64,000 bases of DNA. Source: Demequina pelophila. GTDB lineage: Bacteria > Actinomycetota > Actinomycetes > Actinomycetales > Demequinaceae. The number at the start of each line of letters is the position of its first letter. Within the stretch, counting starts at the first letter, position 1. A program made the position numbers and the translations under genes. Positions 1,271 through 63,968 of the stretch are shown here, in pieces. The notes under the pieces were generated by a model. That model worked only from the letters and a program-made list of their open reading frames with translations. It had not been told where the DNA came from and made no database searches. The stretch spans positions 244,298 through 308,297 of the forward strand of contig NZ_BBLY01000004.1 in NCBI RefSeq assembly GCF_000971175.1, in the 5' to 3' direction.

Positions 1271-1433
1271 GACTCCCCCCGGCCGGGCGTCGCGCCCGTC
1301 CGGGGGTCGACACCCTGCCCCGGCCCGCGCATCGTCCCTGATCGCGAGGGTCGGGGCTCAGGTCACGCCCGGATTGCGCCCGCGGGGGCGATACTGGCCC
1401 CCTGCGGCGACCGCGCCGGGACACGGAGGGCTC

Positions 1434-2738
1434 ATGGTGACGAGGGAGCGAGCCGCGCGCGGCGCGTGGATCGTGCTGGCGGCCGCCGTGGGCGCGTACT
1501 TCGTCGCCGTGGTCAACAGGACCGCGCTGGGCATCGCCGGGGTCGAGGCGCTCGACCGGTTCGGCACGGACTCGGTGGGCCTCGCGCTCCTGTCGGTCAC
1601 GCAGATCGCCGCGTACGCCGCGCTCCAGATCCCCGCCGGTCGCATGATCGACCGCTTCGGCCCCAAGGCCGTGATGGCCACCGGGCTCGCGGTGATGGCG
1701 CTGGGCCAGGCGCTCATGGCGTTCACTCCGAGCCTCGCGATCGCCCTGATCGCGCGCGTGCTCATCGGCGCGGGCGACGGGCCCATCTTCATCGGCGTCA
1801 CGGGTCTCATCGCGCGCTGGTTCCCCGCGCGGCAGGTGCCCGTGCTCGTGCAGGTCACCGGACTCGTGGGCCAGGCGGGCCAGCTGGCCTCCGCGATCCC
1901 CGTGGCCGCGCTGCTGCACCGCGCGGGGTGGTCCACCACGTTCTCCGTGCTCGCCGCCGCGACGGTCGTGGTGGGCCTGATGGCCGCCCTGCGGATCCGC
2001 AACCCCGAGGACGCCGCCGACGAGCCGGACCGCCAGCGCCTGTGGGCGTCGATCGGCCAGGCCGTGCGCCCCGCGGGCACCCGGCTGGGCTTCTGGTCGC
2101 ACTTCCTGGCGCAGTTCGCGCCCAACACGCTCGCCCTGCTGTGGGGCGTGCCCTTCTTCGTCCAGGGGCAGGGACGCACGCCCGGCGAGGCGAGCCTGCT
2201 CATCACGCTGCTGACCGTCGCCGCGATGGCGGGCGGGCCGCTCGCGGGCATGTTCACCGCGCGCCACCCCCTGCGCCGCAGCTGGCTGGTGCTGGGCACC
2301 GCGGGCGCCATCGCGCTCGCGTGGATCTGGGTGCTCGTGCACGACACCCCGCGCCCCCTGTGGCAGCTCGCGATCTTCGCCATGGTCACCGGCCTGGGCA
2401 CCCCCGTCTCGCTCGTCGGGATGGACTTCGCCCGCACCTTCGCCCCGGTCGCGCGCCTGGGCACCGCGAGCGGCTTCGTGAACATCGGCGGGTTCGCGGC
2501 GACCATCGCGTCGGTCGCGCTCGTGGGGCTGGTGCTCCGGCTCGTGGCCCCCGGCGGCGCCGGCGACTACACCCTGGCCGAGTACCGGCTCGCGCTCGCG
2601 GCCCTCGCGCTGCCGTGGCTCGTCGGCGTGGCGGGCGTGATCCGCAACCGCCGCTCGGTGCGCGCGGACCTCGCGGCGCAGGGCGTCGAGGTGCCGCTGC
2701 TGCGCGACACCCTGCGCGGTCGCGGGGGAGCGAAGTGA
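1434..2738 (+). CDS. MFS transporter (tandem copy 1)
   Basis: A 434-residue major facilitator with about 12 hydrophobic segments. The N half holds a motif-A-like loop after TM2 (GRMIDRFGPK) and a conserved RVLIGAGDGPIF helix; a central hydrophilic loop follows near residues 190-210. ATG 1434 has GGAGG a few bases upstream, while the in-frame ATG at 1374 would add an unconserved Pro-rich leader. The next gene starts inside this stop (GTGA) and is a clear paralogue. Proximity to ligJ suggests aromatic or dicarboxylic acid uptake, but 160 bp and one dispersed motif copy separate it from ligJ, so the substrate is unknown. Confidence 0.85.
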   Translation: MVTRERAARGAWIVLAAAVGAYFVAVVNRTALGIAGVEALDRFGTDSVGLALLSVTQIAAYAALQIPAGRMIDRFGPKAVMATGLAVMALGQALMAFTPSLAIALIARVLIGAGDGPIFIGVTGLIARWFPARQVPVLVQVTGLVGQAGQLASAIPVAALLHRAGWSTTFSVLAAATVVVGLMAALRIRNPEDAADEPDRQRLWASIGQAVRPAGTRLGFWSHFLAQFAPNTLALLWGVPFFVQGQGRTPGEASLLITLLTVAAMAGGPLAGMFTARHPLRRSWLVLGTAGAIALAWIWVLVHDTPRPLWQLAIFAMVTGLGTPVSLVGMDFARTFAPVARLGTASGFVNIGGFAATIASVALVGLVLRLVAPGGAGDYTLAEYRLALAALALPWLVGVAGVIRNRRSVRADLAAQGVEVPLLRDTLRGRGGAK

Positions 2739-4084
2739 GCGCGCGCGGAGGCGCCGCGGGCGCGAACCCGGCCGGCGCATCGTCCCCGGACAGGATCCCC
2801 CGCGCGGCCTGGCTGGCCTTCGCCGCGGGCATCGCGCTGTACTTCACCGCGGTGGTCAACCGCACGGCGCTGGGCGTCGCCGGCGTGGACGCGATCGACC
2901 GGTTCGGCATCGAGGCGACCTGGCTGTCGATGCTCGCGATCGCGCAGATCGCCGCCTACGCGGCGCTGCAGATGCCCGCGGGCGCGCTGCTCGACCGGTT
3001 CGGCGCGCGGCGGGTCATGATCGGCGGCGCGATCGTCATGGCCGCCGGCACCGGCCTGCTCGCCGTGACCACCAGCCTCCCCCTCGCGCTCGTGGCGCGC
3101 GTGCTCATCGGCGCGGGCGACGCGCCCATCTTCATCTCCGCGTGCCGCCTCATCCCGCTGTGGTTCCCGGCCCGGCGCGTGCCCGTGCTCGTGCAGATCA
3201 CCGGCTTCGCGGGCCAGGCCGGCCAGCTCGCCACGGCCATCCCGGTCGCGTGGCTGCTGCACTCGTTCGGGTGGACGCCCGCGTTCGCCATCCTCGCGGC
3301 GACCACGCTCGCGCTGGGCGGGCTCGCCGCGGTGGGCGTGCGGATGCCGCCCTCGGTGACGCCGCGCGAGGAGCGCGCGGGCGAGAACCTCCTGGTCCAG
3401 ATCCGCGAGGCGACGCGTCCCGCGGGCACCCGGCTGGGCTTCTGGACCCACTTCGTGTCCCTGTTCTCCGCCAACACGATGGCGCTGCTGTGGGGCGTGC
3501 CCTTCTTCGTCACCGCGCAGGGCCGCACCGTCGCGGAGGCGAGCCTGCTGCTCACCCTCGTCACGCTCGCGAAGATGGTCGCGGGCCCCGTCGCGGGCAT
3601 GTACACCGCCCGCCACCCGCTGCGCCGCAGCTGGCTCGTGCTCGCCTCCGCGGGCGCGACCCTGGTCGCCTGGGTGTCGATCCTCGCGCCGTCGACGCCG
3701 CGGCCGCTGTGGCAGCTGTGCGTGTTCATGGTGGTCATCGGCGCGGGCGGCCCCGTGTCGCTCATCGCGATGGACTACGCGCGCACCTTCAGCCCCGAGG
3801 AGCGCCTGGGCACCGCGACCGGCTTCGTCAACGTGGGCGGCTTCGTCGCCACCATCGCGGGCATCGCGCTCGTGGGCGGGACGCTGCAGGCGGTGTCGCC
3901 GGAGGGCGCGTCCACGTACTCCCTCGACGAGTACCGGATCGCCTTCGCGACGCTCCTGATCGTGTGGATCGTGGGCGTCGCGGGCGTGCTGCGCAACCGC
4001 CGCCGCACCCGCGCGGACATGGCCGCGGAGGGCGTGGTCGTGCCGCCGCTGAGGGACGTCCTGCGCCGCTACCGGCGCCGGTGA
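2735..4084 (+). CDS. MFS transporter (tandem copy 2)
   Basis: A 449-residue 12-TM major facilitator that aligns along its entire length with the preceding transporter: the shared blocks YF(V/T)AVVNRTALG, RVLIGAGD, WFPAR-VPVLVQ, GTRLGFW and LLWGVPFF are nearly identical. It starts with GTG at 2735, overlapping the previous stop by four bases, behind GGGGGAG. An N-terminal extension of about 20 residues (Gly/Ala-rich, containing GASSPD) is encoded by a copy of the dispersed CGCATCGTCCCC motif and is absent from copy 1. A heteromeric pair or a recent tandem duplication with divergent substrates are both possible; the sequence does not tell. Confidence 0.85.
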   Translation: MSARGGAAGANPAGASSPDRIPRAAWLAFAAGIALYFTAVVNRTALGVAGVDAIDRFGIEATWLSMLAIAQIAAYAALQMPAGALLDRFGARRVMIGGAIVMAAGTGLLAVTTSLPLALVARVLIGAGDAPIFISACRLIPLWFPARRVPVLVQITGFAGQAGQLATAIPVAWLLHSFGWTPAFAILAATTLALGGLAAVGVRMPPSVTPREERAGENLLVQIREATRPAGTRLGFWTHFVSLFSANTMALLWGVPFFVTAQGRTVAEASLLLTLVTLAKMVAGPVAGMYTARHPLRRSWLVLASAGATLVAWVSILAPSTPRPLWQLCVFMVVIGAGGPVSLIAMDYARTFSPEERLGTATGFVNVGGFVATIAGIALVGGTLQAVSPEGASTYSLDEYRIAFATLLIVWIVGVAGVLRNRRRTRADMAAEGVVVPPLRDVLRRYRRR

Positions 4085-4093
4085 GGCGAGGCG

Positions 4094-4105
4094 GGGGACG
4101 ATGCG
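4094..4105 (+). repeat. Dispersed motif GGGGACGATGCG, intergenic copy
   Basis: Exact copy of the 12-base motif that recurs through the window, here between the second MFS gene and the helicase-like gene. No hairpin partner is adjacent. Confidence 0.7.
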
Positions 4106-4183
4106 CGGGCCGGGTCGGCCTCCGTCCGGCCCCTCGCGCGCGGGGCGGCGGCGTGGCAGCCGGGCGGCCCGGGTCGGCGCGGT

Positions 4184-4189
4184 TACCGT
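4184..4189 (+). promoter_or_regulatory. -10 element TACCGT for a leaderless transcript
   Basis: TACCGT fits the actinobacterial TANNNT -10 and ends six bases before the GTG at 4196, so transcription would start on the start codon; no Shine-Dalgarno sequence is visible. Confidence 0.55.
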
Positions 4190-4195
4190 AGTCGA

Positions 4196-7100
4196 GTGGT
4201 GGACTACATCGGCCGCGCGTTGGTCGCGGATGCGCTCCAGGAGTGGCGCGAGCAGCTGCAGGAACTGGCGACCGTGTCGCCCCTGCGCGAGCTCGCCCTG
4301 TCCGAGTCGAGCATCGTCGATCTGAGGGGCTCGCACCCCGGCGGGCTCGCCCCGCTGTTCGCCGGCCGCGCGACGCCGCTGAGCGCGCTGCTGCGCGACT
4401 CCGAGGTGTTCGCGCAGGCCGTCCACCGCGTCCGGCTCATCCACGAGTCCGCGGAGCGCGTCAAGGCCACCACCGGCGTGTGGACCGCGGCGCTGGTCGT
4501 GGGCACCGTCGCGTGGACCGACGGCCGCCGCCGCCGCGAGATGCCGCTGGTCATGCGCCCGCTGCACATCGAGCCCGCCCGCCAGGGCGACATGCTCCTC
4601 ACGATGCTCGACTCCGTCGCCGTCAACCCGGTGTTCCTCACCGAGGCGCGCCTGCGCGGGGTCGAGGAGGGCCTGGCCGCGGTCGCGCCGCCCGCCGGCC
4701 CCGGCGTCGAGTTCGATCCCCGCCCCCTGTGGCAGCACGTGCGCGGACTCGACCACGCGTTCCCGGGCGTCGAGGTCGCGGACCGCCTGTTCGTGGGCGC
4801 GTTCGACGACCCCGAGCAGCGCCTCATCGACGACCTCGACGACCTGGACCCCGTCATCAGCGCCTCCGACACGGTCGCCGCGATCGCCGGCGACCAGGAG
4901 GCGCAGCGCACGCTCGCGCAGCCGCTGCCCGCCTTCCCGCTGGGCGACCGCGACCCGTTCGCCGAGCGCGGCGTGGGCGACCTCGACGACGTCGAGTTCG
5001 CGGCGCTCGACCTCATCGCCACCGGCCGGTCCGTGTTCCTCCAGGCGCCCCCGGGCTCGGATCCCGTGGGCACCGTGGCGGCCATCGTGGCCGATGCGGC
5101 GGCCTCGGGCCGCTGCGCCCTCGCCGTGGGCGGGTCGGAGGCGGCCGTGCGCGCCGTCGCGCAGCGGCTCGACCGGGTCGGGGCCTCCGACGCGTACGTC
5201 TCCGGCGCGACGGCCTCGTGGAACGAGGTCGCCCGCCGCCGCCTGCTCACCTCGATGACCATGGCCGTCGAGGACGTCTCGGACGACGAGATCCGCACCG
5301 CCGGCGAGGGGCTGCTCACCGCCCGCCACGAGCTCCAGACGCGCCTCGACGCCCTCCACCGGTCGCATCGTCCCTGGGACGTGAGCGCCTTCGAGGCCGT
5401 CCAGGCCGTGGTGCGGCTCATCTCCACGCCGCCCGCGCCGCAGACGCCCGTGCGCCTGGGGGCGGACGCGGCCGCCTTCGTCGCCACGCACGGCTTCGCC
5501 TCGGTCGCCCAGGCGATCGCCGGCGAGCTCGAGGCCCGCGTCGAGGAGCCCGCACCCGTCGAGGAACCCGCCGAGGACGTCGTGTCGATGGTGCCCTGGT
5601 GGTCGGACACCACGAGCGACCCCGCGCAGGGCGCGACGCTCGACGAGGCGCTCGCGACCCTGGTGACCCGGCACCTGCCCAAGATGCGGGCCGAGGCGCA
5701 GATCGCCTCGCACGAGACCGGCATGGACGAGGCCCCCACGATGACCGCGTGGGTGGACCAGGTGACCCTGTTCACGGACCTGCGCGCCACGCTCGAGATC
5801 TTCTCCCCGGCCGTGTTCCACCGCTCGCTGCACGACCTGGTCGCGGCCACGGCGCCCCCGGGCTCGCCGCAGGCGGGCAAGCTCGCCCGCCGCGACCGGC
5901 GCGCGCTGCGCCGCCGTGCGATCGAGCTGCTGCGGCCCGGACGCACCAAGGAGAACCTCCACGAGAACCTGGTCGCCGCGCACGCCCAGGCGCTGCGCTG
6001 GCGCGCGCACTGCTCGGCGGGCGGCTGGCCGCTCGTGCCCGACGACTTCGACCTCTACGCCGACCGCGTCGAGACGGTCCAGCGCCTGTGGGAGCGGCTC
6101 GCGGAGCCCGTCGCCAAGGCGTCGGGTGAGCGCGACCTGTTCGACCAGCCGTGGGCCCGCATCGCGGAGGTGCTCGAGCGCCTCGCCGAGGGCGTCCCGG
6201 GCACGCTCGAGGCGATCGAGTCCGTGCCCGTCGAGGGCGACCTCGAGGAGGCCGGGCTGGGCCCGCTGCTCGCGGACCTGCGCTCCCGCGGCGCGTCCGC
6301 GGAGCAGGCCCGCCGCGACCTCGAGTTCGCGTGGTGGGCCTCCGCCTTCGACGCGATCGTCGCCGCCGACCCGCGCCTGACCGAGGAGGGCGCCATGGGC
6401 CGCGTGGTGGAGGAGTTCCTGCGCCGCGACCGCGCCTTCGGGGCCGCCCGCGTGGGACCGCTCATGCGCGCGGTCGCCGAGCGCCGCCGCATCGCGATCG
6501 CCCGCCACCCCGAGTTCGCGCGCGACCTGTTCGCCACGCTGGTCGAGGGCGCCGACGCCCCCTACCGCGAGCTGTGGCGCGACTTCCAGCCCCTGGTCGC
6601 CGCGCTGCGGCCGGTGACCCTCGCGACCGCCGAGCAGGTCTCGCGCCTCGCCCCGCCCAGCCGCTGCGTCGACGTCGCGGTGGTATTCGCCTCCGAGTCG
6701 CTCGCGCTCGCGGAGACGGTGCCCACGCTGGCCCGTGCCCGCCAGGTCGTGGTCGTGGGCGACGCCGCCTCCGCGACGCGCTCTGCCGTGTCCGTATTCG
6801 CGCAGCTGCTGCCGCGCGTCGACCTCCACGCGCTGCCGCAGTCGCGCGACCCGCGCCTCACCGGCGTGCTCGGCGCGCTCGCGTACGGCCGCTCGCTGTC
6901 CTCCCTGCCCGCCGCGGGCGTGGTCGACGCCCTCCAGGTGGAGATCCTCGAGGCGACCGGGCTGCCCGTCGCCGGCGCCTCCGCCGTCGAGTCGACCCGC
7001 GCCGAGGTCGACGCCGTGGTCGCGCGCGTCGATGCGGCCGTGCACGAGGTCCCCCACCGCAGCGTGCTCGTGGTGGCCGGCAACGAGCTCCACGCCGCCC

Positions 7101-8470
7101 GCCTGCGCGACGCGCTCGAGGAGCGCGGCGCCCGCCTGGCCGACGCGGTCGAGGTGGTGAGCCTGGGCAACGCCGCGGGCCACGACGTCGACGAGGTGAT
7201 CCTCACCCTGGGCTACGCGCCCGACGAGACCGGCACCCTGCCCGGACGGCTCGGCGTGCTCACCGAGGAGTGGGGCCCGCAGGCGCTCGCCCAGGCGGCG
7301 GTCGCGACCCACGAGCGCCTCACCGTCGTCACCGCGCTCGACGCGGACGCGCTCGGGGCGATCGGCGAGGGCCGCGACGCGGAGGGCCTCGACGGCCTGC
7401 GCGACCTGCTCCAGGCCGCGGCCGCCTCGCCCGTCCCGGCGGAGCGCCCCGAGCCCGCGCCGGGGGACTGGCTGCTCGCGGACATCGCGCACCGCCTGCG
7501 CGCCCAGGGCTACGCCGTCCACGTCCGCTACGGCATCGGCGCGGACGCGATCCCGCTGGTGGTGGGCGGCCGCCACGACCGCGGCTACCGCGTCGCGGTG
7601 GTCACGGACGAGGCCGCGCTCGCGGGCCACGTGAGCGTGCGCGACCGCATGCGCCGCCAGTACGCCCACCTCGAGGCGCTCGGCTGGACGGTCGTGTCGC
7701 TGTGGACCCTCGACGTCTTCATGGATCCCGATGCGGCGGTCGAGTCGATCGTGTCCGCGGTCGAGGGCCGGCGCGAGCCGATCGTGTGGGAGCAGCCCTC
7801 CCTGGACCTGGGCGTCGAGACGTCCCAGATCCGGGTGCCCGTCGAGGACGTGTTCGACGCCGAGTCGGTCGACCAGGTGCTGGGCGACGGGCACGGCGTG
7901 CCCGCCTTCGGCGCCGCCGAGCTGGGCGCCGCGGACTTCGGCTCCACCGGGCTCGAGGGCGGGGAGCCCGACGAGCGTCCCGCCGCCGCGCCCGCGGCAG
8001 CCGAGGCGACCTCCGCGCCCGTCGCGGAGGCTCCCGACGTGACGCTCGGGATCTCCGTCATGCTCGCCGAGCAGCTGCTCGCGGACCGCCACGCGGGTCG
8101 CGCCGCCGCGCAGGAGGCCGCCGCGCAGGTGACCGTCGAGCAGCCCGCCCTGGACCTGGATCTCGACGCGGACGAGGCCCAGCGGCCGCAGACCGAGGAG
8201 GACGACGTGGCCGAGGACGCCGACGCGCAGCCCGCCGACGACACGACCACCGACGAGCAGGCGGCCGACCCGGCGCCTGCCGACGAGAAGCCGACGGACG
8301 AGGATGAGGCGACCGGCGCATCGTCCCCCGTCAAGGCCAGGCCGGCGCGCGGCACCGACCGTCCGCTGATCCCCACGCGGGCGCGCGAGGACATGGACGA
8401 GGGCTGGGGCGGCCGCGAGCGGTCCAGCCGCGACGAGGAGATCCTGCGGGAGCGTCCGCCGCACTGGTGA
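4196..8470 (+). CDS. Large SF1-helicase-like protein with degenerate ATPase and nuclease motifs
   Basis: A 1424-residue protein. The order of blocks resembles actinobacterial superfamily 1 (AAA_11/AAA_12) helicases with a C-terminal Vsr/DUF559-like nuclease: a P-loop-like block (FLQAPPGSDPVGT, about residues 280-292), a motif-II-like block (VVFASES followed by VPTLARARQVVVVGD, about 829-850), a motif V/VI-like block (GHDVDEVILTLGYAPDE, about 997-1013) and a restriction-like block with VRDRMRRQYAHLEALGW (about 1150). The P-loop lacks the lysine, motif II reads FASES where DE is expected, and the nuclease acidic/lysine residues are not evident. The last 220 residues are acidic Ala/Pro-rich linker ending in RPPHW. 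The frame is intact, so a structural or regulatory role is plausible; function unknown. GTG 4196 and GTG 4199 are both possible starts. Confidence 0.7.
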   Translation: MVDYIGRALVADALQEWREQLQELATVSPLRELALSESSIVDLRGSHPGGLAPLFAGRATPLSALLRDSEVFAQAVHRVRLIHESAERVKATTGVWTAALVVGTVAWTDGRRRREMPLVMRPLHIEPARQGDMLLTMLDSVAVNPVFLTEARLRGVEEGLAAVAPPAGPGVEFDPRPLWQHVRGLDHAFPGVEVADRLFVGAFDDPEQRLIDDLDDLDPVISASDTVAAIAGDQEAQRTLAQPLPAFPLGDRDPFAERGVGDLDDVEFAALDLIATGRSVFLQAPPGSDPVGTVAAIVADAAASGRCALAVGGSEAAVRAVAQRLDRVGASDAYVSGATASWNEVARRRLLTSMTMAVEDVSDDEIRTAGEGLLTARHELQTRLDALHRSHRPWDVSAFEAVQAVVRLISTPPAPQTPVRLGADAAAFVATHGFASVAQAIAGELEARVEEPAPVEEPAEDVVSMVPWWSDTTSDPAQGATLDEALATLVTRHLPKMRAEAQIASHETGMDEAPTMTAWVDQVTLFTDLRATLEIFSPAVFHRSLHDLVAATAPPGSPQAGKLARRDRRALRRRAIELLRPGRTKENLHENLVAAHAQALRWRAHCSAGGWPLVPDDFDLYADRVETVQRLWERLAEPVAKASGERDLFDQPWARIAEVLERLAEGVPGTLEAIESVPVEGDLEEAGLGPLLADLRSRGASAEQARRDLEFAWWASAFDAIVAADPRLTEEGAMGRVVEEFLRRDRAFGAARVGPLMRAVAERRRIAIARHPEFARDLFATLVEGADAPYRELWRDFQPLVAALRPVTLATAEQVSRLAPPSRCVDVAVVFASESLALAETVPTLARARQVVVVGDAASATRSAVSVFAQLLPRVDLHALPQSRDPRLTGVLGALAYGRSLSSLPAAGVVDALQVEILEATGLPVAGASAVESTRAEVDAVVARVDAAVHEVPHRSVLVVAGNELHAARLRDALEERGARLADAVEVVSLGNAAGHDVDEVILTLGYAPDETGTLPGRLGVLTEEWGPQALAQAAVATHERLTVVTALDADALGAIGEGRDAEGLDGLRDLLQAAAASPVPAERPEPAPGDWLLADIAHRLRAQGYAVHVRYGIGADAIPLVVGGRHDRGYRVAVVTDEAALAGHVSVRDRMRRQYAHLEALGWTVVSLWTLDVFMDPDAAVESIVSAVEGRREPIVWEQPSLDLGVETSQIRVPVEDVFDAESVDQVLGDGHGVPAFGAAELGAADFGSTGLEGGEPDERPAAAPAAAEATSAPVAEAPDVTLGISVMLAEQLLADRHAGRAAAQEAAAQVTVEQPALDLDLDADEAQRPQTEEDDVAEDADAQPADDTTTDEQAADPAPADEKPTDEDEATGASSPVKARPARGTDRPLIPTRAREDMDEGWGGRERSSRDEEILRERPPHW
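8317..8328 (-). repeat. Dispersed motif GGGGACGATGCG, coding copy
   Basis: Exact copy on the minus strand inside the low-complexity tail of the helicase-like gene, read as Ala-Ser-Ser-Pro. Confidence 0.65.
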
Positions 8471-8480
8471 GCGGCGGACG

Positions 8481-16010: not shown

Positions 16011-16022
16011 GGGGACGATGCG
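16011..16022 (+). repeat. Dispersed motif GGGGACGATGCG, intergenic copy
   Basis: Exact copy between the GH92 gene and tRNA-Ala. Confidence 0.7.
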
Positions 16023-17886: not shown

Positions 17887-18714
17887 ATGCGCACACGGGC
17901 GATTCCCGCGGCGGTGCTCGCCGCGATGACCGTGGTGACGCTCGCCCCGACGGCGACCGCCGCATCGTCCCCCGGGGAGGCCTCCCCGCTCGACTTCGCC
18001 GCGGCGCTCGACGTGCCCGACGGCACCATCTACAGCGCACGCCTGCGGGGCGCCCCCGAGGCGGCCGCCGTGGCCGGCGAGGCGCTGGGCACCTTCCCGC
18101 GCACGGGCGACGACTACGTCATCCTCTCCACCGGGGTCGCGGCCGACGTGCCCGGCGGGGACCCGGTCGACGACCTGTCGACCGAGCTGGGCGACGCGCG
18201 CGGCGCCGACGGCAACGACCTGTCGCAGCTGAGCCTGACGCTCGTGCCGCCGGCGGGCGCCCGCTGCCTCGCCCTCGACTACCAGCTCCTCTCCGAGGAG
18301 TACCCGGAGTTCCTCGACGGCGAGTACAACGACGTCTTCACCGCCGAGCTGGGGAGGTCGGACGTCACGGTGGCCGGCGATCGCATCGAGGCGCCGCGCA
18401 GCTTCGCCGTGGACCCGGACGGCGAGATCGCGACGGTGGGCACCGTGCTGGGCTTCGGCCGCGCGACGGACACGGGCATGGACGGCACGACCGTCGCGCT
18501 CGAGGCGCACACCCGCTTCGTGGCGGGCGCGGAGGACGGCCGGTTCACGCTGGTGCTGAGCGTCCAGGACATCGGTGACTCGGTGTACGACACGGCGGTG
18601 CTGCTCGACTCGTTCCGCTGGCTCTACGGCGACATGTGCGCCGCGACGCCGCTCGAGCGATCCCCGGGGGGCTCCGGCCTCGACCTCTTCATGCCCTTCC
18701 AGATCGTGGAGTAG
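17887..18714 (+). CDS. Secreted choice-of-anchor L domain protein
   Basis: A 275-residue exported protein. Residues 1-26 form a Sec signal peptide ending TATAA, and the next residues SSPGEAS come from a copy of the dispersed motif. The mature part shows the choice-of-anchor L signature LDYQLLSEEYPEFLDGEYNDVF near residues 129-150 and ends ALLDSFRWL plus a short polar tail without a clear LPxTG or membrane anchor. Such domains are thought to be surface or adhesion modules; no enzymatic role is known. GGAGG lies 7 bases upstream of the ATG and a -10-like TACCCT about 50 bases upstream. Confidence 0.8.
   Translation: MRTRAIPAAVLAAMTVVTLAPTATAASSPGEASPLDFAAALDVPDGTIYSARLRGAPEAAAVAGEALGTFPRTGDDYVILSTGVAADVPGGDPVDDLSTELGDARGADGNDLSQLSLTLVPPAGARCLALDYQLLSEEYPEFLDGEYNDVFTAELGRSDVTVAGDRIEAPRSFAVDPDGEIATVGTVLGFGRATDTGMDGTTVALEAHTRFVAGAEDGRFTLVLSVQDIGDSVYDTAVLLDSFRWLYGDMCAATPLERSPGGSGLDLFMPFQIVE
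17961..17972 (-). repeat. Dispersed motif GGGGACGATGCG, coding copy at a signal-peptide end
   Basis: Exact copy, read on the plus strand as Ala-Ser-Ser-Pro at the predicted signal-peptidase site of the choice-of-anchor L protein. Confidence 0.65.
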
Positions 18715-25031: not shown

Positions 25032-25043
25032 GGGGACGATGCA
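25032..25043 (+). repeat. Dispersed motif, one mismatch, intergenic copy
   Basis: GGGGACGATGCA between the FKBP terminator and the transglutaminase-like gene. Confidence 0.45.
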
Positions 25044-29461: not shown

Positions 29462-31051
29462 CTACACCCAGCTGCTCATCCACATGTGCAGGCGCCAGTA
29501 CTCGTAGGGCACGGGGTCGCCCGTCCACAGCGGCAGGAAGAACGCCGCCACCAGCACGCACAGCGCCACCGCGACGGCGGCCACGACCGTGCCGCGCCGG
29601 GACCAGCCCCCGTCGAGCCGCTCGGGCTGCGCGACCCGCCGCAGCGCCCACACCAGCACCAGCACCATGAACGGCGCGATGGTCACCGTGTAGAACGTGA
29701 AGATGGTGCGGTACGCGTACGGCAGCCACGGCACCCAGCCCGCCAGCACGCCCACCGCGAGCGTGGCCGCGAGCATGTCGCGGTGGCGCACCACCCTCCA
29801 GATGGCCCACCCCAGCGCGAGCGTGCCCAGCCACCAGATGAGCGGGTTGCCCAGCGCGTGGATCGCGCTCACGCAGCGCTCCGCCCCGCACGCGGCCTCC
29901 GGCACGTCCTCGAAGTAGAAGGCGGTGGGCCGCTGCTGGACCAGCCACAGCCACGGGTTCGACATGTAGGTGTGCTCGGTGGTGAGGCCGTTGTGGAACC
30001 GCCACCACTGCTGCTGCAGGTGCCACAGCGAGTTGAGCGCGTCGGGCAGCCAGGTGACGCCCTGGCCCGGGTTCTGCGCCGCCCACTGCCGCCCGTACGA
30101 GCCGTCCGTGAGGAACCAGTTCGCCCACGTCGCGACATACACCAGCGGCATGACGACCACCGTGGCGAGCGCCGCCGGGATCGCGCGCAGCCCCGCGCCC
30201 CAGAACCAGCCCGCGTAGCCCGCGCGGCGCCGCTCGACCAGGTCCCACACCACGGACAGCACCAGGAAGGCCGCGGCGTAGTACAGCGTCGACCACTTGA
30301 CCGACGCGCCCAGCGCGAGCGCCACGATGCCGGCGAGGCGCCACCAGCGCACGCCCAGGCCGGGCCCCATTCCGGGAAGGCGGGCCGGTGCATCGTCCCC
30401 GGTCACGGGGGACGATGCGCGGGTCGCCTCCCCGTCCCCGCCGCCCCCGGCGGGGACCAGGGTGCGTGCGCGCAGCCGCTCGCGGTCCCGGGCGGCCCCG
30501 GCGGTGAGGCGCCGCAGCGCCGCGTCGTGGTCGAGGACCAGCAGCCAGGCGGCGAGCACGATGAAGAACGCGGCGTAGCCGTCGAGCACGGCGACGCGGG
30601 ACATGACGATCGCCTGCCCGTCGAGCGCGAGGAGCACGCCGGCCACGCCGCCCCATAGGGTCGACCGCAGCAGGCGGCGGGCGAGCACGGCGACGAGCAC
30701 GCACATCACGGTGCCCAGCACGGCGCCCACGATGCGCCAGCCCACGGGGTTGGCGCCGAAGAGTTGGATGCCCAGCGCGATGAGCAGCTTGCCCACCATG
30801 GGGTGGACCACGTAGTCGCCCTCGGTGCTGAGCCCCGAGTAGTCGCCGTCCACCATCGCCTGGCCGTCGCCGGTCCAGTCGCCCTCGTAGCCGAGCACCG
30901 TGAGGGAGTAGCCGCCGCGCGCGTAGTAGACCTCGTCGAACACGAGCGCGTGGGGGTGGCTGAGCGACAGCATGCGGACCATTCCGGCGATCAGCGCCAC
31001 GCCGGCCAGCATGAGCGCGCCGCGCCAGCGATAGAGGGCCGCGTAAGTCAC
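29462..31051 (-). CDS. pmt: Protein O-mannosyltransferase (GT39, PMT)
   Basis: A 529-residue polytopic membrane protein with about 11 hydrophobic segments. The first extracytoplasmic loop holds the catalytic-type Asp-Glu in HALVFDEVYYARGGYSL (about residues 38-54). A central block with NWFLTDGSYGRQWA and a C-terminal TM region ending in the FYTVTIAPFMVLVL helix match actinobacterial PMTs that use polyprenyl-phosphate-mannose to mannosylate exported proteins. It is divergent from rsmI, the same pair as in mycobacteria. A cytoplasmic loop near residue 215 carries two inverted copies of the dispersed motif (ASSPVTGDDAPA). Start GTG 31051 is leaderless. Confidence 0.9.
   Translation of the reverse strand: MTYAALYRWRGALMLAGVALIAGMVRMLSLSHPHALVFDEVYYARGGYSLTVLGYEGDWTGDGQAMVDGDYSGLSTEGDYVVHPMVGKLLIALGIQLFGANPVGWRIVGAVLGTVMCVLVAVLARRLLRSTLWGGVAGVLLALDGQAIVMSRVAVLDGYAAFFIVLAAWLLVLDHDAALRRLTAGAARDRERLRARTLVPAGGGGDGEATRASSPVTGDDAPARLPGMGPGLGVRWWRLAGIVALALGASVKWSTLYYAAAFLVLSVVWDLVERRRAGYAGWFWGAGLRAIPAALATVVVMPLVYVATWANWFLTDGSYGRQWAAQNPGQGVTWLPDALNSLWHLQQQWWRFHNGLTTEHTYMSNPWLWLVQQRPTAFYFEDVPEAACGAERCVSAIHALGNPLIWWLGTLALGWAIWRVVRHRDMLAATLAVGVLAGWVPWLPYAYRTIFTFYTVTIAPFMVLVLVWALRRVAQPERLDGGWSRRGTVVAAVAVALCVLVAAFFLPLWTGDPVPYEYWRLHMWMSSWV
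30390..30418. repeat. Dispersed motif, inverted pair inside pmt
   Basis: GCATCGTCCCC (30390-30400) and GGGGACGATGCG (30407-30418) face each other across a six-base spacer, an 11-bp stem. The pair encodes ASSP and GDDAP in a loop of the mannosyltransferase. Confidence 0.75.
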
Positions 31052-38192: not shown

Positions 38193-39116
38193 GTGACCTC
38201 GCACGCCAAGGCGCCCGCGAAGGTCAATCTCCAGCTCACCGTGGGCCCCGTCCGCGAGGACGGCTACCACCCGCTCGTGACGGTCTTCCAGGCGCTCGCG
38301 CTGTGGGAGCACGTGGTCGCCGCCCCGCGCGCCGACGGCCGGATCACGCTCACCGTGGACGCCGCGCCCGGCGCGCCCGTCGCGATCGACGCCGTGCCCA
38401 CGGACGAGCGCAACCTCGCGTGGAGGGCGGCCGCGCTGCTCGCCGAGGAGTACGGCATCGCCGACGGCGTCGACCTCGCGATCACCAAGGGCGTCCCGGT
38501 CGCCGGGGGGATGGCCGGGGGATCGGCCGATGCGGCGGCCGCCCTGGTCGCGTGCGCCGACGCCTGGGATCTGGGCGCCACGCGGGCGGACCTCGCGCGG
38601 CTGGGCGCGCGACTGGGTGCAGACGTGCCGTTCAGCCTCCACGGCCACACCGCGATGGGGCTGGGGCGCGGCGACGAGCTGACCCCCGTGATGACCCGTG
38701 GCGAGTTCCACTGGGTGCTCGCGACGCAGGCCGAGGGCCTGTCGACGCCGGCCGTGTTCGCCGAGTACGACCGTCAGGTGGCCGCCGGCGACCTCGAGCC
38801 GTCCGACATGCGCGCCCGCGACGCGATCATGAGCGCGCTGCTCGCCGGCGACGCGGAGTCCCTGGGCGCGGCGCTCGCCAACGATCTGGAGGCGCCCGCG
38901 CTGGCGCTGGCGCCGCGGCTGGGCGCCGTGCTCGCCGCCGCGGAGGAGGCGGAGGCGCTGGGCGTCATGGTGTCCGGCTCCGGGCCCACCGTGGCCGCGC
39001 TCGCGCACAGCCGGCGGCACGCCCTCGCGATCGCGGCGCACCTCGACGCCGCGCGGGTGGCCGATGCGGTGGTCACCGCATCGGCCCCCGCGTCGGGGAC
39101 GGTGCTCGTCGGGTAG
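38193..39116 (+). CDS. ispE: 4-diphosphocytidyl-2-C-methyl-D-erythritol kinase
   Basis: A 307-residue GHMP kinase of the MEP isoprenoid pathway, phosphorylating CDP-ME at the 2-hydroxyl. Visible: AKAPAKVNLQLTVG and REDGYHPLVTVFQAL at the N terminus (substrate side), the ATP loop PVAGGMAGGSADAAAAL near residue 103, and the C-terminal motif GVMVSGSGPTVAALA. It starts with GTG one base after rsmA. It converges with mscL across 21 bp. Confidence 0.94.
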   Translation: MTSHAKAPAKVNLQLTVGPVREDGYHPLVTVFQALALWEHVVAAPRADGRITLTVDAAPGAPVAIDAVPTDERNLAWRAAALLAEEYGIADGVDLAITKGVPVAGGMAGGSADAAAALVACADAWDLGATRADLARLGARLGADVPFSLHGHTAMGLGRGDELTPVMTRGEFHWVLATQAEGLSTPAVFAEYDRQVAAGDLEPSDMRARDAIMSALLAGDAESLGAALANDLEAPALALAPRLGAVLAAAEEAEALGVMVSGSGPTVAALAHSRRHALAIAAHLDAARVADAVVTASAPASGTVLVG

Positions 39117-43999: not shown

Positions 44000-44011
44000 C
44001 GCATCGTCCCC
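44000..44011 (-). repeat. Dispersed motif GGGGACGATGCG, intergenic copy
   Basis: Exact copy in the divergent region between the DUF1206 gene and rplY. Confidence 0.7.
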
Positions 44012-46231: not shown

Positions 46232-46243
46232 CGCATCGTCCCC
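46232..46243 (-). repeat. Dispersed motif GGGGACGATGCG, intergenic copy
   Basis: Exact copy in the divergent region before the phosphoglucomutase gene, about 30 bp upstream of its -10. Confidence 0.7.
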
Positions 46244-52871: not shown

Positions 52872-54169
52872 GCGGGGGCTCCCGTCTGGTGGGCGAAGGC
52901 GTCCGTCGCGTGGCGGACGCGGCCGGAGATCACGGTGGCCGCGCATCGTCCCTCGCCGTGAAGGACCGTGTCCTCCAGCGTCGTGTGGACGTCGCTCACG
53001 GGGACGTCGAGGAAGGCGAGGTCCGCGCGGGCGCCCACGGCCAGGTAGCCGGTGCGGTGCGGGCCCATGTGCAGGCCCATCGCGCGGGCGCCGCCGTGGG
53101 TGGCGGCCGCGAGCAGGCGCTCCGGCAGGTCGTCCCACCGGTAGCCCTGGGCGCGCGCGATCCGGTGCAGCGCCGCGACGTCCCCCATGAGGTCGAGGCT
53201 GGGGGAGCTCGACAGGGAGTCCGTGCCCACGGCGATGGGCGCGCCCTCGTGGAGGTACGCGGCGACGGGCGGCTCGTCGAGCCCGATCACCGCGTTCGAG
53301 CGCGGGCACAGCGCCACCGAGGTGCCGCGGGCGCGCAGGATCGCGCGGTCCTTGGCGCCCAGGTAGACGCCGTGGGCGACGTGGCAGTCGGGGCCCAAGA
53401 CGCCCAGGTGGTCCACATAGTCGGTGGCGGACGTGCCGTAGCCCGCCTGGCGCAACTCCGTGAGGCTGCCGAGTCCCTTGGCGTGCCAGGGCTCCGCGGC
53501 GACGTGCTCGAACTCGCGCTCGATCGCGGACTCGCCCAGGTGGATATGGATGCGGCTGCCGCGCTCGCGGACGATGTCCGGGATGTCCAGCAGCGGCAGG
53601 ATCTCGAGCGAGTACGGCGCGTGCGGGCTCAGGCCCGTGCCGGGCGGGGTGGGCAGCGCCGCGAGGGCGGCCTCGACCTGGTCGCGCCCGCGCGCCCGCC
53701 AGTCCTCGTTGGTCCAGTCCATCACCTCCCAGTAGGTGATGCCGTGCAGGCCCGCGTCGTGCAGCGCGCTCATGGCCTCGAGGTCCGTCACCACGTCCGC
53801 GACGGCGGTGGTGCCGGCCTCGAGCGCGGCGCGCGCGCCCGCGGCGGCGGCCGCGGCCCAGTCCTGCCCGCGCTCGTAGACGGGGTTGAAGGCGCGCGCC
53901 CAGTCCTCGAAGCCCTGGTAGGACCCGGCTCCTACCTGAGCCATGCCGGTGTACTGCAGGTGCGTGTGCGCGTTCACCAGGCCGGGCATGAGCACGCCGG
54001 TCCAGTGCGCCTCGTCGAAGTCGAGGCCGCGCTCGCGCAGCGCCGCGACCACCCAGGCGCGCTCGCCCACGTGGAGGATGCGCCCGTCGCGCACCGCGAT
54101 CGCGCCGTCGAGCGTGGGCGGCGCGGTGACGGGCACCACGAGCGCCGCGGAGTAGACGGTGACCCTCAT
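52868..54169 (-). CDS. Nucleoside/SAH deaminase-like amidohydrolase
   Basis: A 433-residue amidohydrolase with one metal-site set: NAHTHLQYTGM (H-x-H), HIHLGES (His plus Glu), HGVYL (His) and VGTDSLSSSPSLDLMGD (Asp), as in the MtaD/DadD/SsnA/aminofutalosine deaminase group. The PGLVNAHTHLQYT and SPHAPYS blocks fit adenosine-derivative deaminases. The gene directly upstream encodes a SAH-hydrolase homologue, so deamination of S-adenosylhomocysteine, MTA or 5'-deoxyadenosine is the favoured guess. Guanine or aminofutalosine deaminase cannot be ruled out. Overlaps both neighbours by four bases. Confidence 0.8.
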   Translation of the reverse strand: MRVTVYSAALVVPVTAPPTLDGAIAVRDGRILHVGERAWVVAALRERGLDFDEAHWTGVLMPGLVNAHTHLQYTGMAQVGAGSYQGFEDWARAFNPVYERGQDWAAAAAAGARAALEAGTTAVADVVTDLEAMSALHDAGLHGITYWEVMDWTNEDWRARGRDQVEAALAALPTPPGTGLSPHAPYSLEILPLLDIPDIVRERGSRIHIHLGESAIEREFEHVAAEPWHAKGLGSLTELRQAGYGTSATDYVDHLGVLGPDCHVAHGVYLGAKDRAILRARGTSVALCPRSNAVIGLDEPPVAAYLHEGAPIAVGTDSLSSSPSLDLMGDVAALHRIARAQGYRWDDLPERLLAAATHGGARAMGLHMGPHRTGYLAVGARADLAFLDVPVSDVHTTLEDTVLHGEGRCAATVISGRVRHATDAFAHQTGAPA

Positions 54170-55692
54170 CGCGCGTCCCGGTAGCGCGGGGAGTGCCAGT
54201 CCGGCTGCGTGGCTTGGACGGGGGACGATGCGGCGGGGGCCATGGTCGTCGCGGTGCCCGGGGACGATGCGCCGGCGAGGGGGACGCCCCGGGCGGCCGC
54301 GGCCGCGCGGCCCACCCGGGCGACGGCCTCGTCCGGCAGGGCGTGGACGCCCACGCCGGGGCGGGCATCGACGAGGTGGCGGATCGCGGCGAGCTGGGTC
54401 GCGAAGCTCAGGTCCATGATCTCGATGGGGTTGCCCTCCGCGGCGGTGACGTTGATGCAGCCGCCGCGGTCGAGCACCAGGGTCATCCAGCCGGGGATGT
54501 AGTCGACGGCGGCGGCGCCGTCGAGGGGCGCGAGGACGGCGCCCTCGCGCCCGGCCGCGTCGAGATCGACCTCGCCGGGCACGCCGCCGGCGACCGCGAC
54601 CACGGCGGCGGCCCGCAGCAGGGGCACCGTGACGGTCTGGGGCACGCCGGTGCAGGACACGACGAGCGCGCCCTCCGCGCCCTCGAGCGAGTCGACTGCC
54701 TCGTAACCGTCGTGGAGGGCGAGCAGGGCGCGCACGGGGTCGGCCTCCGCGACGCGCACCTCCGCGCCGAGCGCCGTGAGGTGGGCGGCGACGCCCTGGC
54801 CCACCGGGCCGTAGCCGATCACGAGTGCCGGCTGGTCGCGCACGGTGAGACCCGCGGGCTCGAGCAGGTCCGCGATGGCGAGCACGCACGACTGCCCCGT
54901 GCCGTACCGGTTGTCGAACCCGGTCTTGGTCGGGGCATCGTTCACCGCGACCACCGGGGTGCGCAGCGCGCCCTCGCGCGCCATGAGGCGCAGGGGGGTG
55001 AGGCCGGAGGTGGTCTCCTCGGTGACCCCGATCCAGGCCTCGACGAGCTCGGGCGCGGCCTCGTGGGCGAGGCGGACCAGGTGGCTGCCGTCGTCGACGA
55101 CGAGGTCGAAGCCGCGGCGCAGCCATCCCAGTGCCGCGGCGCGCTCGGCGTCGCCGGACAGGGCGGGGTCCGCGTCGACGGGCACGCCCTGCGCGCGCAG
55201 GGCCTCGGCGACCGCGGGGTCGGTCTCGTCGGGGTGCGCGTACACGGCGACGTCCGCGCCGGCGTCGCGCAGCAGCAGGGCGAGGTTGGCGGTCTTGGGC
55301 TCGAGGGTCATGGCGACGCCGATCCTCAGCCCGCGCACCGTGCCCGCCCCCGCGAGCTCGGCCGCGAGCGCGCGCGAGGCCGGCATGTGGGCCAGCGCGA
55401 AGTCGAGCCGCTCCTGGGCGTCGGCGCGCTCCGGCAGCGGCGCGCCGCCCAGGGTGAGCGTCGCATCGTCCCCCGCGACCTCGACGCCGAGCACGGCGGC
55501 CTCCTCTGCGGGGCCCACCTCGTCGACCAGGCGGGCGCCCATGCCGGTGAAGAGCGCGGCGACGGCGTAGGCGAGGGGCTGGTCCTCGGGGCCTTCCGCG
55601 CTGATGCGCACCGGGCGGCCGGCGATGAGCAGGTTGGTGGCGCGGGCGAAGCGGCGCAGGATCCGCTCGGCGGCGGCGTGCGGATCGGTCAT
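54166..55692 (-). CDS. Adenosylhomocysteinase family protein (SAH or S-inosylhomocysteine hydrolase)
   Basis: A 508-residue AdoHcy hydrolase relative. Conserved pieces are the NAD-domain VIGYGPVGQGVAAHLTALGAEV, VNDAPTKTGFDNRYGTGQS (canonical: NDSVTKSKFDNLYG-CRES), NVTAAEGNPIEIMDLSFATQ and PDWHSPRYR near the end. It lacks the Cys of the GCRES motif and is altered at EPKTANL (canonical E-x-TKTG), so a changed purine specificity is plausible. A roughly 25-residue insert before the terminal helix holds two dispersed-motif copies. It starts leaderless (TAGAAT seven bases upstream) and is first in the operon with the deaminase-like gene. Confidence 0.82.
   Translation of the reverse strand: MTDPHAAAERILRRFARATNLLIAGRPVRISAEGPEDQPLAYAVAALFTGMGARLVDEVGPAEEAAVLGVEVAGDDATLTLGGAPLPERADAQERLDFALAHMPASRALAAELAGAGTVRGLRIGVAMTLEPKTANLALLLRDAGADVAVYAHPDETDPAVAEALRAQGVPVDADPALSGDAERAAALGWLRRGFDLVVDDGSHLVRLAHEAAPELVEAWIGVTEETTSGLTPLRLMAREGALRTPVVAVNDAPTKTGFDNRYGTGQSCVLAIADLLEPAGLTVRDQPALVIGYGPVGQGVAAHLTALGAEVRVAEADPVRALLALHDGYEAVDSLEGAEGALVVSCTGVPQTVTVPLLRAAAVVAVAGGVPGEVDLDAAGREGAVLAPLDGAAAVDYIPGWMTLVLDRGGCINVTAAEGNPIEIMDLSFATQLAAIRHLVDARPGVGVHALPDEAVARVGRAAAAARGVPLAGASSPGTATTMAPAASSPVQATQPDWHSPRYRDAR
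54221..54271 (+). repeat. Dispersed motif, two direct exact copies
   Basis: GGGGACGATGCG at 54221-54232 and 54260-54271, both read on the minus strand as ASSP just before the C-terminal PDWHSPRYR of the SAH-hydrolase homologue. Confidence 0.75.
55462..55473 (-). repeat. Dispersed motif GGGGACGATGCG, coding copy
   Basis: Exact copy, read as Gly-Asp-Asp-Ala (AGDDATLTLGG) in the N-terminal region of the SAH-hydrolase homologue. Confidence 0.65.
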
Positions 55693-60313: not shown

Positions 60314-60316
60314 GAT
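60311..60316 (+). promoter_or_regulatory. -10 element TAGGAT overlapping the mfd stop codon
   Basis: The mfd TAG is the first half of TAGGAT, which ends seven bases before the ATG at 60324; this rejects the ATG at 60315. Confidence 0.55.
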
Positions 60317-60323
60317 GACGGCC

Positions 60324-60935: not shown

Positions 60936-61605
60936 GGGCCTCGCCCGCCTCGTCGAGGTGATGGACCGGCTCCGCTCCCCGGGCGGCTGCCCCTGGGACG
61001 CCGAGCAGACGCACCAGACGCTCACCCGCTTCGCGCTCGAGGAGACCTACGAGCTGGTCGACGCGATCGAGAACGGCACCCGCGCGGACCTGCGCGAGGA
61101 GCTGGGCGACGTCCTGCTCCAGGTGGTGTTCCACGCCCGCGTCGCGCAGGAGCACCCCGAGGACCCCTTCGACCTCGACGAGGTCGCGACGCTCATCGCC
61201 GACAAGCTCACCGAGCGCCACCCCCACGTCTTCGCGGACGAGGAGGCCGGCACCGCCGCGGAGGTCCATGCCCGCTGGGAGCGCATCAAGAAGGAGACCA
61301 AGCGCCGCGAGTCGGTCTTCGACGGCGTCCCGCTGGACCAGCCCTCGCTCGCCCGCGCCCAGAAGATCGCGAGCCGCGCCGCCCGCGCCGACCTCGATGT
61401 CCCGGTGCCGGGGGACGATGCGCCGGCCGCCGCATCGTCCCGTGTCCGGGAGGGAGCGGGAGACCTGGGCGAGCGCCTGCTCGCCCTCGCGGTCGAGGCG
61501 CATCACGCCGGCGTCGACGCGGAGGCGGCCCTGCGGGCCGCGACCAGGCGCTACGAGGACGCCGCGCGGGCCGCCGAGAGGGTCACCCAACGTTCACCCG
61601 AGTAG
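60928..61605 (+). CDS. mazG: Nucleoside triphosphate pyrophosphohydrolase
   Basis: A 225-residue MazG, hydrolysing (d)NTPs, including aberrant ones, to NMP and PPi. The N-terminal domain carries CPWDAEQTHQTL, the first Mg-site E-x-x-E in LEETYELVDAI and the second EELGDVLLQVVFHA. The C-terminal domain is partial in length. A 20-residue linker (VPGDDAPAAASSR, about residues 162-174) consists of two inverted dispersed-motif copies. The gene is translationally coupled to the upstream lipoprotein and precedes eno. Confidence 0.93.
   Translation: MSEGLARLVEVMDRLRSPGGCPWDAEQTHQTLTRFALEETYELVDAIENGTRADLREELGDVLLQVVFHARVAQEHPEDPFDLDEVATLIADKLTERHPHVFADEEAGTAAEVHARWERIKKETKRRESVFDGVPLDQPSLARAQKIASRAARADLDVPVPGDDAPAAASSRVREGAGDLGERLLALAVEAHHAGVDAEAALRAATRRYEDAARAAERVTQRSPE
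61411..61442. repeat. Dispersed motif, inverted pair inside mazG
   Basis: GGGGACGATGCG (61411-61422) and CGCATCGTCCCG (61431-61442, last base differs) face each other across GCCGGCCG-type sequence, an 11-bp stem. It encodes GDDAPAAASS between the MazG halves. Confidence 0.75.
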
Positions 61606-61641
61606 GACAATGGTCGCCCAGCGCGTTCGCACGGGCGTCGA

Positions 61642-62967
<1,326 letters not shown>

Positions 62968-63000
62968 GACCGTCGGCCGCGCGAGCGGCCGCAGCGTCTG

Positions 63001-63040
63001 ACGGGCGCGTCTCCCCTCGGGGAGGCGCGCCCGTTCCGCA
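63001..63040 (+). terminator. Intrinsic terminator after eno
   Basis: ACGGGCGCGTCTCCCC (63001-63016) pairs with GGGGAGGCGCGCCCGT (63019-63034) with one G-T pair, followed by TCCGCATTT. A smaller hairpin (CGGCCGC-GCGA-GCGGCCG) precedes it. Confidence 0.8.
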
Positions 63041-63046
63041 TTTCCG

Positions 63047-63058
63047 GGGGACGATGCG
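63047..63058 (+). repeat. Dispersed motif GGGGACGATGCG, intergenic copy
   Basis: Exact copy between the eno terminator and the ftsB promoter. Confidence 0.7.
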
Positions 63059-63101
63059 CGACTCGCGGCGGCGCCACCGGCCCGCCGGGACCTGGGGCCG
63101 G

Positions 63102-63107
63102 GACAAT
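63102..63107 (+). promoter_or_regulatory. -10 element GACAAT, leaderless start of ftsB
   Basis: GACAAT ends six bases before the GTG at 63114. Confidence 0.5.
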
Positions 63108-63113
63108 GGGCGC

Positions 63114-63968
63114 GTGCCCCGTGACTCCCGACCCTCGACGCCGCGCGCGTCCGGGGGACGGTCGCGCGCGAAGGCGGGCGCGAGCCGTGTGAAGCCGAGC
63201 GCGAGCCGCGCGAAGCCGGGGGCGACGCGCGACGCGCGGCCCGCCGGCGCATCGTCCCCGGGCAAGCCGGTCACGGGCTCCGCGAAGCCGGCCACCGGCT
63301 CCGCCGAGGCGCGCCGGCGCCGCGAGAGCACCCGCATCCCCAAGGGCCGGGGCTCGTCCCGTCCGGGCGGCGCGACCGCCCCTTCCCGGGTGCAGGCGCT
63401 GCGCAATCGCATCGAGCCCGTCGCGCCGGGCCGGTCCTGGATGACCACGTCGACGGTGCGGATGGTCGTGCTCGTCGTGGTGATCGCGCTCGCCACCGTG
63501 GTGGTGCTGCCGTCGCTGCGCGCGTACTTCCGCCAGCAGGAGGAGCTCGCCGAACTGCGGGCCGAGGCCGAGCAGGCGCGCGCCGAGGTCGAGGAGCTCG
63601 AGGCGGAGAAGGCGCGCTGGGAGGACCCGGCGTTCATCGTCGCGCAGGCGCGCGAGCGGCTCGCCTACGTGTTCCCGGGCGAGACGCCGTACCGCGTCAT
63701 CGACCCCGAGGTGGTCGAGGGCGCCGCGGAGGGCTCGCCGGCGGCCGCCGAGCAGCCCGACGTCCGGCGCGACGGCACCTGGTACACGCGCCTGTGGGAC
63801 ACCTTCGAGGAGGCCGGCGGGGTGCCGGAGGACGCGGAGGCCGAGGGCGCCGACGCGGAGGCGGGCGCGGATTCCGGCGCGGATTCCGGCACGGACGCCG
63901 CCTCTCCCGCCGCCTCTCCCGACGCCTCTCCCGACGCCGGTGGCCCGGCCGCCAGCCCGGCCCCGTAG
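63114..63968 (+). CDS. ftsB: FtsB/DivIC septum formation initiator
   Basis: A 284-residue bitopic protein: a basic, Ser/Pro/Gly-rich cytoplasmic tail of about 110 residues, one membrane helix (MVVLVVVIALATVVVLPSL, about 117-135), an extracytoplasmic coiled coil (QQEELAELRAEAEQARAEV, continuing ELEAEKARWEDP), the FtsB-type end RERLAYVFPGETPYRVID and a long acidic Ala/Gly/Ser tail. It should join the FtsQBL divisome complex. Both tails are longer than in typical FtsB; the N tail has the ASSPG peptide from the dispersed motif. GTG 63114 is taken for its -10 at leaderless distance. Confidence 0.9.
   Translation: MPRDSRPSTPRASGGRSRAKAGASRVKPSASRAKPGATRDARPAGASSPGKPVTGSAKPATGSAEARRRRESTRIPKGRGSSRPGGATAPSRVQALRNRIEPVAPGRSWMTTSTVRMVVLVVVIALATVVVLPSLRAYFRQQEELAELRAEAEQARAEVEELEAEKARWEDPAFIVAQARERLAYVFPGETPYRVIDPEVVEGAAEGSPAAAEQPDVRRDGTWYTRLWDTFEEAGGVPEDAEAEGADAEAGADSGADSGTDAASPAASPDASPDAGGPAASPAP
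63248..63259 (-). repeat. Dispersed motif GGGGACGATGCG, coding copy in ftsB
   Basis: Exact copy, read as Ala-Ser-Ser-Pro in the disordered cytoplasmic tail. Confidence 0.65.

Follow-up and report, generated by a model that had tools for sequence, protein, structure and literature searches.

To our knowledge, self-specific DNA-uptake words are known only from the Neisseriaceae and the Pasteurellaceae, so that only two cases underlie ideas on how such words originate, how their receptors evolve and what is gained by self-preference. HIP1 of the cyanobacteria, an extremely over-represented short word, is palindromic, and we know of no drifting dialects of it. Here we describe a 12-base word, GGGGACGATGCG, dispersed through a 64,000-nucleotide stretch of the Demequina pelophila genome (contig NZ_BBLY01000004.1, positions 244,298 to 308,297; this whole stretch is "the window" below). 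The methionyl-tRNA synthetase encoded in the window agrees with the genus: among 80 loci listed, it shows 81-88% identity to nine from Demequina and no more than 77% to the other 71. The word is real, it is selected or driven, and it forms dialects. In what we consider the most economical reading, it is probably the core of a signal resembling a DNA uptake sequence (DUS).

The DUS of the Neisseriaceae come in eight dialects that have a CTG core in common and match the core phylogeny; they are found in genes and in permissive gaps, and the named dialects have 2245-5918 copies (excerpted text of PMC3630211). In Neisseria the pilus DNA receptor has been identified as ComP, according to a 2019 review (excerpt of PMC6370729), and two disulfides in ComP are essential for DUS binding, according to excerpts of a paper in which the receptor for the uptake signal sequence (USS) of the Pasteurellaceae is described as recently predicted, a minor pilin (PMC12616744). 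Micrococcus luteus is transformed via Flp pili with comEA/comEC (excerpt of PMC6370729).

The Demequina word is like the Neisseriaceae DUS, as excerpted from PMC3630211, in being a short non-palindromic word with very many copies, a conserved core and dialects that appear congruent with phylogeny; it too lies in genes and permissive gaps, in a host with a type IVa pilus and Com proteins. It is unlike the DUS in that the sequence is unrelated, with a core of CGATGC rather than CTG, the host is an actinobacterium, and 337 exact copies are found here as opposed to the range excerpted above from PMC3630211. Like the Pasteurellaceae USS it is a short self word with a core, though of different sequence and in a different phylum. 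The host resembles M. luteus as a high-GC actinobacterium with comEA/comEC, but the pili of M. luteus are of the Flp/Tad kind, and the excerpted review text mentions no uptake word there (PMC6370729). Our literature search found no report of an uptake word or of competence in Demequina, and none on actinobacterial or Gram-positive uptake words.

Abundance, anatomy and placement of the word

The window (73.8% G+C) contains 15 exact copies of GGGGACGATGCG, 7 on the plus and 8 on the minus strand, compared with an order-3 Markov expectation of 0.04. When one mismatch is allowed there are 38 matches, 23 of them inexact, compared with a mean of 2.34 and a maximum of 6 in 100 dinucleotide shuffles. 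A first-pass annotation of the window had listed the 15 exact copies and at least eight with one change, noted their balanced orientation and estimated well under one exact copy by chance. Each of these statements held at the sequence level, and the coordinates were right except for three that were off by one (correctly 30408, 30389 and 33026). The copies are as follows.

1328..1339, minus strand: one-mismatch copy
2776..2787, minus strand: exact copy, in a called gene (MFS transporter)
4094..4105, plus strand: exact copy, outside called genes
5364..5375, minus strand: one-mismatch copy
8317..8328, minus strand: exact copy, in a called gene (REase_MTES_1575 protein)
16011..16022, plus strand: exact copy, outside called genes, upstream of tRNA-Ala
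17961..17972, minus strand: exact copy, in a called gene, close to the gene start
25032..25043, plus strand: one-mismatch copy
30389..30400, minus strand: one-mismatch copy, divergent pair with the copy at 30408
30408..30419, plus strand: exact copy, in a called gene
32144..32155, plus strand: one-mismatch copy
32969..32980, minus strand: exact copy, in a called gene
33026..33037, minus strand: one-mismatch copy
39077..39088, minus strand: A-to-C variant GGGGCCGATGCG, resembling the dialect of sister species
9828, 14282, 23750 and 45322: further copies of the A-to-C variant
44000..44011, minus strand: exact copy, outside called genes; the gene after it is presumably L25-like
46232..46243, minus strand: exact copy, outside called genes
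52942..52953, minus strand: one-mismatch copy
54221..54232, plus strand: exact copy, in a called gene, in tandem with the copy at 54260
54260..54271, plus strand: exact copy, in a called gene
55462..55473, minus strand: exact copy, in a called gene
61411..61422, plus strand: exact copy, in a called gene that we take to be MazG-like, convergent pair with the copy at 61431
61431..61442, minus strand: one-mismatch copy
63047..63058, plus strand: exact copy, outside called genes
63248..63259, minus strand: exact copy, outside called genes

The REase_MTES_1575 domain belongs to a 1424-aa protein encoded at 4196-8470, possibly a defence gene.

The complete D. pelophila assembly (11 contigs, 2,682,991 bases) holds 337 exact copies, 168 forward and 169 reverse, compared with a single copy of the reversed word, which served as control. 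With up to one mismatch the counts are 1153 and 24. The word is thus a feature of the whole genome, of which the window is a typical part, and the full-genome count that the first-pass annotation had proposed as a check came out far above the control. Copies on the two strands are intermixed within six contigs, and their spacing is near random (coefficient of variation 0.6-0.9, from 97 of the genome's 337 copies, which were among 100 listed). In a relative assembled as one contig (G026, 2,705,399 bases), 66 copies divide into 33 leading and 33 lagging if the origin is placed at the start of the record, the best split with the origin left free gives p = 0.09, and the coefficient of variation of the spacing is 0.93.

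The word belongs to an extended form that is roughly TGNCN-GGGGACGATGCG-NN-GGCCG. Downstream of the 12-mer, in a set of 44 exact copies, G stands at the third base in 91% and at the fourth in 70%; further downstream C, C and G are more loosely kept, and upstream there is a preference for T-G-N-C. Conservation across copies extends over only some 20 bp and is loose in the flank. In 47 one-mismatch copies, 46 of the changes fall at bases 1-5 and 12 and just one at bases 6-11, which spell CGATGC. The related form GGCCGATGCG occurs 19 times in 81 kb of the same genome, compared with 1.3 expected. Together with the A-to-C form in the window, this excess indicates that the genome holds a main form plus a minor form, and the minor form is the main form of sister species.

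Called genes in the window carry 13 copies of the 11-mer GGGACGATGCG, and 50 synonymous shuffles of those genes gave a mean of 0.06 and a maximum of 1. The first-pass annotation had observed that copies inside genes are mostly read as GDDA or ASSP, and 11 of the 13 are indeed in those frames, which we take to be the ones best tolerated by proteins. The excess over synonymous shuffles is repeated in seven further species that share the dialect (51 in-gene copies vs 3.3, maximum 8), in nine species with the C dialect (279 vs 46.7), in G010 (9 vs 0.3) and in G009 (20 vs 0.58). The word is denser outside called genes than inside them, at 1.01 and 0.23 per kb in the window and 0.72 and 0.10 per kb in the seven species, a ratio of 4-7 in the D. 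pelophila dialect and of 2-7 over all sets. Genes were called by our own composition-based caller, under which copies at gene edges count as outside; it misses genes in species of lower G+C (coding fraction 0.61 in G010), making the densities there unreliable.

A 23.5-kb stretch with 15 copies was compared with nine named Demequina loci, and an aligned orthologous site was obtained for seven copies and for none of the other eight. Four of the seven differ from their orthologues mainly by substitutions and three involve gaps; because of these gaps, insertion may have occurred at single sites.

Dialects in Demequina and beyond

The exact word is present in 37 genomes of the genus, D. pelophila included, with 66-433 copies in 13 of them and 1-17 in the remaining 24; 22 genomes of other families have 0-4. 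Species nearly without the exact word mostly carry their own version of it. We sampled 79-115 kb from each of 30 of the 44 genus genomes, and a word with a CGAYGC core is over-represented (z>5) in 26 of these, D. pelophila among them, in differing dialects. The core CGATGC is common to most of the genus and is replaced by CGACGC in three species. The best word is GGACGATGCG in nine genomes including that of D. pelophila, GGCCGATGCG in six, GGCCGATGCC in five and GGCCGATGCT in four, one of which (G035) has a tie with GGACGATGCG. A CGACGC form is best in G003 and G009, the latter with 37 copies of CCCGACGCT compared with 1.8 expected.

Mantel tests relate dialect similarity to distance in both ComEC (r = 0.61, p = 0.0001, n = 12) and PilB/T/C (r = 0.38, p = 0.002, n = 13). 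For ComEC, 23 of the 30 loci were compared, the others lying outside the residue pattern; 19 genomes entered the tree and 12 the Mantel test. Of the five GGACGATGCG species in the ComEC tree, four group in a single supported clade, separate from the fifth. The ComEC and PilBTC trees disagree, and the D. pelophila dialect is not a single clade on either. By these sequence comparisons the dialects appear to follow phylogeny, though on small samples (n = 12-13). Minor-pilin cassettes of two kinds follow pilA in Demequina, distinguished by a small (~140 aa) or a large (~600-640 aa) pilin, and both kinds are scattered across dialects. The PilBTC tree divides largely by cassette, which suggests that pilus genes may have been exchanged.

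Other short repeats were seen in single genomes: CTCAGAACCGAC and AGAACCGACACT in G001, ACCTACCACT in G020 and CACCCAGCAC in G035. A palindrome in D. flava, TTTCACGTGAAA, gives 10 counts over both strands, hence about 5 sites, in 122 kb, and looks like what we take to be parS.

A looser pattern was counted in 297 genomes of the order, at rates that are approximate since genome sizes were rounded. It is raised in Demequina (about 184-560 per Mb in species with a CGATGC dialect) and in another family, which we label f20. Among the f20 sites listed, CGC follows CGATGC at 64 of 100 in G276; in G095, CGC follows at 9 of 50 and CG at 19 of 50. The string CGATGCCGCS reaches ~187-383 per Mb in 7 of the 10 genomes of the f20 genus g22 and 94-167 per Mb in the remaining three (G148, G188 and G201); in 16 genomes of other families it runs at 28-64 per Mb in 13 and at 82-139 in G046, G094 and G260. 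For both patterns the reversed-word control contains TAG, which is rare in genes, and modest ratios are therefore no evidence. The form CGATGCCGC(G/C) is strongly over-represented in the f20 genomes G276, G161, G256, G266, G109, G057 and G095. The f20 word may be a second, family-level dialect; G148, which has PilT and few words, and genus g49, which has many words and no PilT over the cut-off, count against this. In a metagenome-assembled genome of the Bifidobacteriaceae, GGACGATGCC-like sites recur in 7.8 kb, which may point to a relative of f20.

That the word tracks type IV pili was suggested at first by 12 of 24 chosen genomes that had PilT, all in families f1, f20 and f2. PilT over the cut-off is in fact present in 104 of the 297 order genomes (24 in the Demequina family, 12 in f20, where 18 genomes were drawn, and 68 elsewhere), so that pili occur in many families lacking the word, and we dropped the claim. 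Having the machine is thus no predictor of the word by itself, and pili may be necessary but are not sufficient.

Pilus genes and a candidate receptor

Demequina carries the machinery that an uptake word would require. PilT over the cut-off and type IV pilin signals were each detected in all 44 genus genomes, and ComEC in 43, the exception being a genome that is 85% complete. In D. pelophila a type IV pilus gene cluster lies between aroE and aroC, with PilT recognized by profile match. We take its order, naming most genes by position and resemblance, to be aroE-pilB-pilT-pilC-pilA-two small pilins-PilX-like-pilD-pilM-pilN-pilO-aroC. In the same genome, the one examined for ComEA, a comEA gene (SLBB plus helix-hairpin-helix) adjoins comEC.

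A candidate for the receptor is an orphan pilin of 141 aa, encoded on contig C6 of D. pelophila away from the pilus cluster, with relatives in many congeners. It has a type IV pilin N-methylation signal (PF07963 over the cut-off). The best 26 of 291 database matches share 51-69% identity with the query over 91-100% of its length, and wherever the source names of these 26 give an organism it is Demequina. An invariant W-C and a C-terminal C are found in 28 aligned relatives, along with a common H-P-x-G, P-G-V-R-F-D, N-G-Y-V-E pattern. Across the same 15 species the head of the orphan pilin is more conserved than that of PilA (mean identity 0.41 vs 0.30). With its long helix and a head rich in strands, the predicted model (pLDDT 88.9) is compatible with a pilin; a Foldseek search with it gave weak matches only (best E 1.5), and ComP is not among the VIA-align matches listed, which shows neither kinship nor its absence. 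The head has two cysteines in 15 of 15 species compared and can therefore form at most one disulfide, so the two-disulfide feature of ComP is absent from all 15. PilA divergence did not correlate with dialect (r = 0.06, p = 0.30, n = 13).

Explanations for the word

The first-pass annotation had offered three readings: behaviour like that of a DNA uptake sequence, a nucleoid-protein site, or relics of a small inserting element. The first fits best, because the word is genome-wide, strand-balanced, non-polar, richer between genes and divided into clade-wise dialects, and because competence genes are present. Specific binding, preferential uptake, drive and the choice of the pilin that reads the word would then be combined as follows. 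Demequina would extend a type IVa pilus, one pilin of which would bind free DNA best when it bears the species' own dialect; PilT would retract the pilus, ComEA and ComEC would pass the DNA inward, and recombination would install it. Word-bearing DNA would enter more often, and words born by mutation would spread over many generations by molecular drive, building up where they are least harmful, which would be between genes and in stretches of protein that tolerate them, such as GDDA and ASSP. As receptor preference drifted, the genome would slowly be rewritten, giving lineage dialects. More tentatively, as a proposal that could well fail, this may be a third and independent invention of DNA uptake sequences, in the monoderm Actinomycetota: an old CGATGC-core watermark with dialects in Demequina and another in a second family (~CGGNCGATGCCGCS), read by a type IVa pilin that is not ComP-homologous in detail.

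Several observations weigh against an uptake signal, or against the orphan pilin as its receptor. Our literature search found no uptake data for Demequina. No word was found in the sampled DNA of G001 and G012 despite their PilT, pilins and ComEC, and the words of G027 (GGACGACGCT, z 4.7) and G018 (GGCCGATGCC, z 4.4) are weak. The D. pelophila dialect GGACGATGCG is split among three positions on the PilBTC tree (20 genomes). In the f20 genus g49 (G122 and G225) there are 183-286 words per Mb and no PilT over the cut-off, and the looser pattern does not exceed ~139 per Mb in the 68 PilT-bearing genomes outside f20 and the Demequina family. The DUS of Neisseria are described as forming inverted pairs at the ends of genes; in the D. 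pelophila (A) dialect such pairs are not clearly in excess among copies less than 100 bp apart (4 convergent, 5 divergent and 6 tandem vs about 2.9, 2.9 and 5.8 expected). Divergence of the orphan pilin does not track dialect (r = 0.16, p = 0.09, n = 20 in the Mantel test; with ComEC controlled for, partial r = -0.26, n = 12), and its role as the dialect-setting receptor is not supported; the net charge of its head is -10 here and -16 to -2 in 15 species, and two species without the word carry it as well. For these reasons (no tracking of dialect, acidity and presence in two wordless species) the orphan pilin is kept as a candidate only. A role of the word in terminator stem-loops was rejected on the A-dialect pair orientations. 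The C-dialect counts (12 convergent, 9 divergent and 5 tandem vs 5.4, 5.4 and 10.8 expected) leave room for a minor terminator role in that dialect.

Among other explanations, a highly iterated word like HIP1, kept by a bias of mutation, methylation or repair rather than by uptake, would account for the extreme over-representation, the very high copy number and the change of dialects by single bases. We think it unlikely, given that GGGGACGATGCG is not palindromic (not self-complementary), that semi-conserved bases extend several positions beyond the core, and that a single extended sequence stands far above the synonymous and Markov nulls. A site for a chromosome-organising or nucleoid protein, spread genome-wide and drifting in specificity between species, would agree with the random-like spacing in both D. 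pelophila and the one-contig chromosome, the non-polarity and the excess outside genes; it is improbable in that the word has been repeatedly rewritten among species, which is unexpected of a chromosomal housekeeping site.

The first-pass annotation had already set the word apart from polar replication or repair signals such as Chi and KOPS, and the 168/169 division by strand, together with the 33/33 division on G026 under the assumed origin (p = 0.09 for any origin), bears this out; such a signal is very improbable even though a copy number like this would be plausible for one. Relics of a short mobile or REP-like element would be in keeping with the eight of 15 copies lacking an aligned orthologous site and the gaps at three of the other seven. 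They too are very unlikely, and the annotation's inserting element finds little support, since copies have only ~20 bp in common, inverted pairs are not in clear excess and four of the seven aligned copies differ from their orthologues mainly by substitution. Protein sequence and codon bias, to which the preference of in-gene copies for the GDDA and ASSP frames might be ascribed, do not explain 13 copies where synonymous shuffles give 0.06, nor the higher density outside called genes, and we regard this as hardly credible.

If the word is indeed part of an uptake signal, it would add a third case from a different phylum, one that offers many related dialects within a genus that has cultured species. 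It would allow one to ask how dialects change, whether the pilin changes first and whether words shape species boundaries, and it would predict natural transformation in Demequina.

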